Positions 15,371 to 21,141 of a DNA stretch of 46,099 bases are shown piece after piece (the stretch's first letter is position 1; the number at the start of each line of letters is the position of its first letter). A program made the position numbers and the translations under genes. The stretch is from the NCBI GenBank assembly GCA_902628375.1, contig CACOMS010000008.1:1-46099 (forward strand). Reading direction: 5' to 3'. Origin of the DNA: an uncultured SAR86 cluster bacterium. Lineage in GTDB: Bacteria > Pseudomonadota > Gammaproteobacteria > Magnimaribacterales > Magnimaribacteraceae. The notes beneath the pieces were generated by a model. The model ran no database searches and was not told where the DNA came from. It saw only the letters and a list, made by a program, of their open reading frames with translations.

Positions 15371-17981
<2,611 letters not shown>

Positions 17982-18653
17982 TTAGGCAGATCTTGCTAAT
18001 TGCTTTCTTTTCGATTCAATTATAGAAGTTCGAAGGTGATCATGCATTTGCTTAGTCAGGAAGTTTCTATTTTCATCTAGCACATTACAACCAAAAAGAT
18101 CAGAAATATTAGTTGCAAAGCTATACATGTAATCAAAAGCCTCTATTGAATTATTAATTTTTTCTGTATTAAGCACCAAAGCTACATCGGAGGAAGAATT
18201 TCCATCTATAAAATAACCTGGTTTTTTTGCATTCAATAAGCTAAAGATTAGTTTATTGTCGTCATCTAGAATACTAAGATGACCCTGCTCTTCATGCCGT
18301 ATATTTAAAGATTCATAATTTTCTACTATGCTTTCTTTAGAAAAGACATCATTCTGAGAACTTAAATTAATAATGACGAGATTATGTTGCTCTACTTCAC
18401 TAATTGTTTCTTTTCTTTCTTCTGAATGTATTTCTTCATCATGAGGCTCATCAAAAATCTCTGTCTCCAATTCATTTTCTTGATGATCAAAATATTCTTC
18501 GCTGTCTTGCAATACTTCTTCAATAGACTCTGGGCTCATTAATTCAACTTTTATCCCTTCATTTCTAGACCTGAGAGCCCTCCTAAAACCATCAAAAATA
18601 ATTAAGGCTAAAAGAAGACCCAATAAAATTGTTAGAATTTCAGGTAGGTTCAT
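17982..18653 (-). CDS. zipA: Cell division protein ZipA
   Basis: An inner-membrane protein that tethers FtsZ at the division ring. An N-terminal transmembrane helix (about residues 5-22) is followed by a basic patch and an acidic, Glu/Asp-rich linker (about 40-85) that is shorter than in E. coli. The C-terminal FtsZ-binding domain (about 88-223) follows, with LVIINLSSQND, GYFIDGNSSSD and RNFLTKQMHDHLR. The domain pattern and its place between smc and ligA make the call firm. Four bases separate it from smc, so the three genes are co-transcribed. Confidence 0.9.
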   Translation of the reverse strand: MNLPEILTILLGLLLALIIFDGFRRALRSRNEGIKVELMSPESIEEVLQDSEEYFDHQENELETEIFDEPHDEEIHSEERKETISEVEQHNLVIINLSSQNDVFSKESIVENYESLNIRHEEQGHLSILDDDNKLIFSLLNAKKPGYFIDGNSSSDVALVLNTEKINNSIEAFDYMYSFATNISDLFGCNVLDENRNFLTKQMHDHLRTSIIESKRKQLARSA

Positions 18654-18657
18654 AGTT

Positions 18658-21141
18658 TTAGGCAGTACCAGAAATTCGGACTGCTTCCTCTACATCAACA
18701 GCTACTAGTTTAGAAACTCCTGGTTCTTGCATAGTAACTCCCATTAAGTGTTTGCTCCTTTCCATTGAAATTTTATTATGTGTTATGTACACAAACTGAA
18801 CCCTTTCTGACATCTCTTCTACAAGACTAATAAATCTCATGGTATTTAAATCATCCAGAGGAGCATCTACTTCATCTAATAAACAAAACGGTGCTGGATT
18901 TAATTCAAAGAAAGCAAAGACTAAAGATATTGCAGTTAAAGCCTTTTCTCCTCCTGAAAGCTGGGCTACGCTTGCGTTCTTTTTACCTGGAGGTCTTGCA
19001 ACTATACCTACACCTGAAGTTAATAAGTCATCACCTAGAAGTATTAGCTCTGCATGACCTCCTCCAAAAAGCTTAGGGAAGGAAACAGCTAAACTTGAAT
19101 TTAACTTATCAAAAGTGTCCTTAAAGGTTGTTCTTGTTTCTTTGTCTATTTTTGCAATAGCGTTCTCAAGGGTTGATAGCGCATTTAATAATTCTTCATT
19201 TTGTGCATCTAAATGCTCTTTTCGTTTTTCTTCTTGCTCATGCTCTTCCATAGCAGCAAGATTGATAGCCCCCAGTCTAGCGATCTTTCTTTCTATTGCC
19301 TCTAGTTCAGACTGATAAGTTTCTAGATCAGATTTACTATCTAAATGCTCTAATAGCTCTTTTAAGTTCTGCCCCTCTTCAGTAATAAGTTTTTCTATAT
19401 TTTTAGCTTCTAATTTCTTTTCCTGGTGTTTAAGCTTCATATCTTGAAGACTTTCTCTAGAAGAGCTAACTAATTGCTCCTTTTCAACTCTTTGTCTCTC
19501 TATAGACCTTATTCTTTCTTGAACCTCATCCATAGAAGCTCTAGCTTCTTTCATTTTATTCTCTATGATTAGTCTGCTCTCTAAAAGCCCTTCAAGTTCT
19601 TTATCCTTTTCTTTTAGGGGCTCTTCTGCAACTTTGATTTTCTCCTCGAAATCAGTAATTTCTTCATTCAAACCAGAGATCTGATCTGAGTTATGTTTGA
19701 TTTGAGAAACGCACGTAGCTAACTTTGCTTGAAGATCTGCAAATTCTTGAGTTCTATCTAAAAGGTCTAATCTCTCTTCTTTGCTTGCCTCTGAACTAGA
19801 AATCATCACCTCTTTAACTTTAGAAACTAAGTTTGGAGGTTCTTTAGCCAAACTATCTAATGTTTGATTAAGTTCTTTTAATTGTATTCTAGTTTCTTCT
19901 ATTTTTGCCTTATCCACTTCACCTTTGCTGATTCGTAGGACAATTTCATGAAGCTTTTTAAGCTCATTGAATGTCATATTTATTCTTGAATGATAGTCCT
20001 GCCAATCAGAAATAATCTGATTCACAGATCCATCAATATCTGTCTCGTTGAACTGCTTATTTCTCAAATCGTCCAGTTTGGGTGATATCTCAGAAATTAA
20101 TTTATTAATATTTTTTTCTTCTTCGTTTAAATCATGAAGCTGCCTTTTTCTTTCTGACAAAGTCTGATTTTTTAAAGAAAGCTTATCTTGAGAGCTAGTT
20201 ATATTTTCCCTTTCAGATTGAATAGCTTGTTCAGCTCTAGAGATATCTGCTCCTGCACTATAGAACTCTTGTTGAATTTTATCTATGGATATTTGTATTT
20301 CTGATTGCTTTTCCCTAAGAATATCTACTTCTGTATCAGAGGTAGTTTTTGAAGTATTTATCTTTTCAACTTCTATTTGCTGGAGTCTAACTTCTTCTTC
20401 TAATTTAGAGGCATTATCAGCTTCTGTCTGCCATTGATAAGCTCTCATCTTTCCTTTTAATAAAGACTCTTCTTCTCTTAACTCTGAATATCTTTCTGCA
20501 GCTCTTGCTTGTTGTTTTAGCTTAAAAAGAAGCCTCCCTATTTCTTCACGTAAATCTTCTAATCTAGATAAATTTTCTTTTGTTCTTCTAATTCTTGATT
20601 CTGTTTCTTTCCTTCTTTCAAGATACCTAGAAATTCCTGCTACTTCTTCTATATATCCTCTCATTTCTTCTGGTTTTGAGCTCACCAACCTCTCTATCAT
20701 TCCTTGTTCTATAATCGCGTAGTTTCTTGGACCAAGACCAGTTCCCAAGAATAGGTCCGTAATGTCCCTTTTTCTGCAGCTAGTGCCGTTCAGATAGTAA
20801 TTTGATTGACCTTCAATATCGTGGACTCTTCTTACAGATATCTCACTATAACTAGCATATTCTCCACCTATCCTCCCTTCTGAATTATCAAAAATAAGTT
20901 CAATTGATGCCCTTGAAACTGGCTTTCTGGAAGAAGAACCATTAAATACAACCTCAGCCATAGACTGGCTTCTAAGATTTTTTGCTGAGCTTTCACCTAA
21001 TACCCATCTAACTGCATCAATAACATTTGATTTTCCACATCCGTTTGGACCAACAATAGCTGTTAAATCTGCAGGAAAGCTGATATTTGTTGGATCAACA
21101 AAAGACTTGAAGCCCGAAAGCTTTACGGTTTTTAATCTCAT
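18658..21141 (-). CDS. smc: SMC chromosome partition protein, short, apparently hingeless
   Basis: A chromosome-condensing ATPase. The N-terminal head has Walker A GPNGCGKS (residues 31-38). The C-terminal head has signature LSGGEKA (728-734) and Walker B CLLDEVDAP with catalytic Glu757, so both halves of the ATPase are intact. Between them lie only about 420 residues, nearly all predicted coiled coil. The usual arms plus hinge take about 800. No globular Gly-rich hinge with the aLG and FLPL-type motifs is visible near the middle (about 345-480). The protein is 827 aa against about 1,150-1,200 for the family, in one uninterrupted frame. A structured leader lies between ccmI and this gene. Confidence 0.93.
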   Translation of the reverse strand: MRLKTVKLSGFKSFVDPTNISFPADLTAIVGPNGCGKSNVIDAVRWVLGESSAKNLRSQSMAEVVFNGSSSRKPVSRASIELIFDNSEGRIGGEYASYSEISVRRVHDIEGQSNYYLNGTSCRKRDITDLFLGTGLGPRNYAIIEQGMIERLVSSKPEEMRGYIEEVAGISRYLERRKETESRIRRTKENLSRLEDLREEIGRLLFKLKQQARAAERYSELREEESLLKGKMRAYQWQTEADNASKLEEEVRLQQIEVEKINTSKTTSDTEVDILREKQSEIQISIDKIQQEFYSAGADISRAEQAIQSERENITSSQDKLSLKNQTLSERKRQLHDLNEEEKNINKLISEISPKLDDLRNKQFNETDIDGSVNQIISDWQDYHSRINMTFNELKKLHEIVLRISKGEVDKAKIEETRIQLKELNQTLDSLAKEPPNLVSKVKEVMISSSEASKEERLDLLDRTQEFADLQAKLATCVSQIKHNSDQISGLNEEITDFEEKIKVAEEPLKEKDKELEGLLESRLIIENKMKEARASMDEVQERIRSIERQRVEKEQLVSSSRESLQDMKLKHQEKKLEAKNIEKLITEEGQNLKELLEHLDSKSDLETYQSELEAIERKIARLGAINLAAMEEHEQEEKRKEHLDAQNEELLNALSTLENAIAKIDKETRTTFKDTFDKLNSSLAVSFPKLFGGGHAELILLGDDLLTSGVGIVARPPGKKNASVAQLSGGEKALTAISLVFAFFELNPAPFCLLDEVDAPLDDLNTMRFISLVEEMSERVQFVYITHNKISMERSKHLMGVTMQEPGVSKLVAVDVEEAVRISGTA

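Follow-up and report, generated by a model that had tools for sequence, protein, structure and literature searches.

We found that the smc gene in a 46,099-nucleotide stretch of DNA from an uncultured SAR86 cluster bacterium (hereafter the window) encodes an SMC protein without a hinge domain, and that this architecture, with intact ATPase heads and with ScpA, ScpB and ParB retained, is conserved throughout SAR86, an order of bacteria abundant in the ocean. The gene occupies 18658-21141 on the minus strand as one uninterrupted frame of 827 codons, for which a Pfam SMC_N match was obtained together with a score of 834.5 bits against the NCBIfam equivalog model TIGR02168 (SMC_prok_B; cut-off 567.35), and orthologues were found across SAR86. 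The product was thus confirmed as an orthologue of the gammaproteobacterial Smc whose ATPase heads are intact and whose hinge is absent.

Both halves of the ATPase head had been described as intact in the first-pass annotation, and the alignment bears this out. The N-terminal half (residues ~1-168; 20638-21141, minus strand) contains invariant columns and the Walker A motif GPNGCGKS (residues 31-38; 21028-21051), and the joint with the C-terminal half (residues ~606-827; 18661-19326), recognised by its conservation and motifs, carries the ABC signature LSGGE (residues 728-732; 18946-18960) followed by the Walker B and beginning of the D-loop, FCLLDEVD (residues 752-759; 18865-18888), in which D756, E757 and D759 are invariant. 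Walker A and LSGGEKA were each present in 70/70 SAR86 SMCs. Within the window's own family, conservation of the heads was 0.91-0.97 and a rough dN/dS was 0.01-0.02 for the heads and 0.06-0.08 for the arms, values that are approximate as synonymous sites are near saturation. These values indicate strong purifying selection on smc.

Directly downstream of smc lie zipA (17982-18653, minus strand; Pfam ZipA_C, 2.6e-15), which marks the gammaproteobacterial smc-zipA-ligA locus, and ligA, encoding the NAD-dependent DNA ligase (15966-17975, minus strand; Pfam DNA_ligase_aden, 3.2e-98). The best-scoring full-length relatives with a stated taxon were Gammaproteobacteria, which together with the gene order speaks for vertical descent of the SAR86 smc. 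The ZipA of the window is divergent, scoring 40.3 bits against an NCBIfam zipA cut-off of 119.65.

In order to examine the absence of the hinge, the protein was searched with several models. Pfam SMC_hinge (PF06470) gave no match in the window SMC protein or elsewhere in the 1.13-Mb draft genome (67% complete), and none in any of the 203 SAR86-order genomes. PF06470 is, however, a weak detector of gammaproteobacterial hinges: four full-length relatives reached just 19-34 bits with it, and among the controls it gave no match in Caulobacter although ScpA and ScpB were matched there; since it is a weak negative when taken alone, a specific gammaproteobacterial hinge model was built. This model scored 85-178 bits on the 37 full-length relatives from which it was built, whereas no SAR86 SMC exceeded 3.3 bits. 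A profile made from 19 gammaproteobacterial hinges was also run against whole genomes; it found matches in 6/6 control genomes and in 0/34 SAR86 genomes, free-standing hinges included. When the window SMC was aligned with a full-length SMC profile, residues 1-465 corresponded to model positions 1-457 and residues 411-823 to positions 750-1165, so that positions 458-749, where the hinge lies, were skipped. A diverged hinge overlooked by Pfam is ruled out by the specific profile. The proposal that no hinge motif is visible near the midpoint of this protein was therefore correct, and the reading of a hinge-less SMC, which would have to dimerise by other means or act differently, is supported: neither of the two observations named as able to overturn it, a match to a hinge HMM and a full-length SMC in relatives, was made.

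The same architecture was found wherever the gene was intact in SAR86. An SMC match was present in 178 of the 203 genomes of the order (4 families, 22 genera), in 38 of the 40 near-complete ones and in 30 of the 35 from the window's own family, where the protein measures ~825 aa if the gene is whole. All intact SAR86 frames were short, at ~825, ~810, ~730 or ~995 aa depending on the family; none of the close relatives compared carried a full-length SMC, and relatives named by organism were SAR86 cluster bacteria. In other Gammaproteobacteria, by contrast, uncut smc frames were ~1160-1250 aa in a class-wide sample of 369 genomes, in which several shorter frames outside SAR86 reach a contig end by their coordinates. 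With full-length SMCs as outgroup, the tree of the heads splits SAR86 into families f1+f2 and f3+f4. The simplest reading is that the hinge was lost once, at the base of the order or close to it; two separate losses within SAR86 may also have occurred.

A few sequences deserve separate mention. The SMC frame of L154 (G118, family f3), from a genome that is 59% complete, contains an internal TGA, which is either an error or a real break. Two MAG contigs titled Klebsiella pneumoniae (L072 and L106) encode a full-length Smc; as Klebsiella is expected to use MukB, this label looks wrong. The SMC of L072 is near identical to that of a marine gammaproteobacterium (L069), and the two were grouped in the head tree.

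The region that occupies the position of the hinge was described with AlphaFold2 models, at moderate confidence owing to shallow alignments (for the window SMC: 37 sequences, mean pLDDT 72, pTM 0.28). The N-terminal arm strand (residues ~169-364; 20050-20637, minus strand) was predicted as a helix over residues 170-364, with pLDDT mostly 74-91 up to residue 360, and the C-terminal strand (residues ~434-605; 19327-19842) as a helix over 434-588. Between them lies the tip (residues ~365-433; 19843-20049), with two short helices at 368-405 and 411-432 and pLDDT ~53-84. In the 732-aa form, a plainer hairpin was predicted (171-336 and 343-494, with a six-residue turn; mean pLDDT 71, again of moderate confidence from a shallow alignment). 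According to these models, a short helical hairpin without CXXC is predicted to stand where the hinge was. The CXXC zinc hook was found in 0/70 SAR86 SMCs, which rules out such a hook at the tip.

The tip hairpin (365-430) is the least conserved part of the protein in the window's family, and its sequence differs between the SAR86 families. A profile comparison of the tips of the four families aligned the adjoining arm only and did not find homology between the tips themselves, and a Foldseek search with the whole model returned SMC or Rad50 family members as all top 50 hits, with low TM-scores, and was uninformative on the tip. Next to it, a patch of the distal C-terminal arm (residues 441-480; 19702-19821, minus strand) showed a conservation of 0.75-0.81 in the window's family, against 0.47-0.61 in the residues that precede it and 0.58 in those that follow, and a rough dN/dS of ~0.07. 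Judging from this conservation, the patch is a candidate contact or dimer surface.

A further arrangement of the arms was observed in the SMCs of 995-996 aa, which belong to family f3 (L133, L134, L135, L138, L139, L141, L144 and L152). Self-comparison of these proteins revealed that residues 218-335 are repeated at 338-455 (48% identity in the best case) and residues 661-802 at 517-658 (51% in the best case), while the tip is present once; the C-side repeat includes a second copy of the motif INLAAPDE near the joint. The 995-aa form thus has a whole joint-arm hairpin nested at the tip of another; its two arm strands have lengthened in step while the tip has stayed single, which fits an antiparallel rod. 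The outer units of the duplication form one clade (support 100/98). On the head tree, however, the 995-aa form needs several changes, and its carriers have close relatives within their genus with the 732-aa form, so that one origin followed by repeated loss or exchange is indicated. Because 1168 exceeds 995 by roughly the length of a hinge, we also considered that the 995-aa form might be ancestral and have lost the hinge alone; this is ruled out by the arm duplication and by the outer-unit clade.

The partners of Smc were then considered. Of the 203 SAR86-order genomes, 172 had a match to ScpA and 173 to ScpB; in the window's genome, where the first-pass annotation had advised looking for them, scpA and scpB were found adjacent to each other (G000:C10) with nearly full-length Pfam matches. 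ParB was present in 20/20 SAR86 genomes tested, and its GERRxRA motif in 6/6 examined. MukB (PF04310) was found in 0/20 SAR86 genomes tested, and the same advised search detected neither MukB nor a second SMC in the window's genome, which has a single SMC match; a second SMC system as a substitute was rejected on these grounds. Sites resembling parS were located in five complete contigs, each 2.9-3.5 kb away from a contig end: L190:2918 (G040), L189:2995 (G029), L188:3540 (G190), L187:3542 (G127) and L186:3527 (G123). One of them is a perfect 16-mer, at 2.9 kb of its contig, and the other four have 1-2 mismatches. About 12 chance matches are expected over all loci at up to three mismatches, and hence only sites with 0-1 mismatch carry weight alone. 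No parS was found next to parB in the loci examined, nor in the two stretches of the window's genome examined.

Taken as a chromosomal system, the SAR86 SMC would be an ordinary one, serving as the ATPase in an Smc-ScpAB condensin that ParB loads; its hinge would have been lost around the base of the order, and the gap was presumably closed by the short helical hairpin. Each subunit would consist of a head and a shortened antiparallel coiled-coil rod, and two such subunits would meet at the tip and the distal coiled coil, where the conserved distal C-strand would take part in a helical bundle. ATP-driven engagement of the heads and bridging by ScpA and ScpB would complete the complex, which would still translocate on DNA or extrude it. 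We infer that the tip dimerises and that motor function is kept. As ScpA, ScpB and ParB are all present, a working Smc-ScpAB motor is the likeliest reading, and we consider it fairly probable that this hinge-less motor dimerises at its tip and distal coiled coil together with the heads and ScpAB. A different dimeriser at the tip is mechanistically plausible, since the hinge of B. subtilis Smc could be replaced by the zinc hook of Rad50 with normal growth on rich medium (PMC5344682).

The main rival to this tip-paired motor, which we regard as rather unlikely, is that the tip does not dimerise and that ATP at the heads and ScpA/ScpB are all that joins the rods, giving an open clamp in place of a ring. 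The lack of both hinge and zinc hook, the plain six-residue turn predicted for the 732-aa form, the tip sequence differing from family to family and the retention of ScpA and ScpB would all agree with such a clamp; on the other hand, B. subtilis Smc becomes non-functional when hinge dimerisation is abolished (PMC5344682), and the conservation of the distal C-strand suggests that it contacts something. The present data cannot separate the tip-paired motor from the open clamp. It is highly improbable that a hinge or another dimeriser is supplied in trans by a separate protein, as the control-proven profile detected no free-standing hinge in the 34 SAR86 genomes, a search that covers hinges and not unrelated dimerisers.

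The departure of the protein from chromosome organisation to another role, for example in repair like RecN or Rad50, seems very unlikely. RecN and Rad50 are likewise without an SMC hinge and the window SMC has a weak profile similarity to both, whereas it scores far over the cut-off of TIGR02168 and far under those of the Rad50 and RecN profiles (44.5 bits against 407.85 for the RecN model TIGR00634), and ScpA, ScpB, ParB and parS are retained with no MukB in replacement. That the short frame is an assembly artefact, a pseudogene or the product of a frameshift is scarcely conceivable. The window's genome is an incomplete draft, and in two other genomes the SMC gene is divided between contigs or interrupted by a stop; however, the same architecture recurs in many independently assembled SAR86 genomes, single-contig ones included, and the gene is under strong purifying selection. 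The order-wide survey thus rules out this explanation, in agreement with the earlier view that a simple frameshift was unlikely.

Hinge-less SMCs as a kind are already known. A cluster of such proteins from ocean metagenomes, assigned to Actinomycetes and without CXXC, was reported from sequence and AlphaFold models by Sussfeld et al. (2025; PMC12153180), in the text of which neither SAR86 nor Gammaproteobacteria are mentioned. The two sets, compared here by description, share SMC-type heads, the lack of hinge and CXXC, and a marine origin; they differ in that the earlier cluster consists of metagenomic genes assigned to Actinomycetes, whereas the SAR86 proteins come from a gammaproteobacterial locus in a genome context with ScpAB and ParB and have several discrete arm lengths. 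The zipA-ligA locus and the gammaproteobacterial full-length relatives speak against a branching of the SAR86 SMC with actinobacterial SMC, and SAR86 looks like an independent, genome-resolved case, probably from a separate loss.

Compared with full-length gammaproteobacterial Smc (TIGR02168), the SAR86 protein has in common the heads, motifs and joint, the zipA-ligA locus, ScpA/ScpB and ParB, but it lacks the hinge, its arms are shortened and it has ~340 residues less than the relatives of ~1165 aa. Rad50/SbcC and the archaeal ASRP/ClsN resemble it in having a head and an antiparallel coiled coil without an SMC hinge; these proteins, however, dimerise via a CXXC zinc hook (PMC9389158), which the SAR86 SMCs do not have, and the ASRP model NF045487 scored 69.4 bits on the window SMC against a cut-off of 300. 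The B. subtilis Smc with the Rad50 zinc hook also works without the hinge fold, but it is engineered and carries a known dimeriser (PMC5344682). As far as the literature was searched, what is new is the extension of the trait over the SAR86 order with ScpAB and ParB kept, along with arms of several discrete lengths and their nested duplication.

SMC dimerisation is regarded as dependent on the hinge, and several models make DNA entry or the bypass of obstacles depend on it as well. As the SAR86 SMC has no hinge while the rest of the known system is kept, the usual ring picture needs testing there. Loss of the hinge with ScpA, ScpB and ParB kept across the order provides a natural experiment, in which the role of the hinge can be set apart from those of the heads, arms and kleisin. 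In B. subtilis Smc only certain arm lengths work (PMC5344682), and the spread of arm lengths in SAR86, along with the nested arm duplication, is natural material for the arm-length rules that were engineered in that species. We tentatively raise the possibility that this abundant order organises its chromosome without a closed SMC ring, the arms being joined by a minimal coiled-coil tip or not joined at all. If that is true, SMC loading and translocation would require no hinge and no dedicated dimerisation domain.
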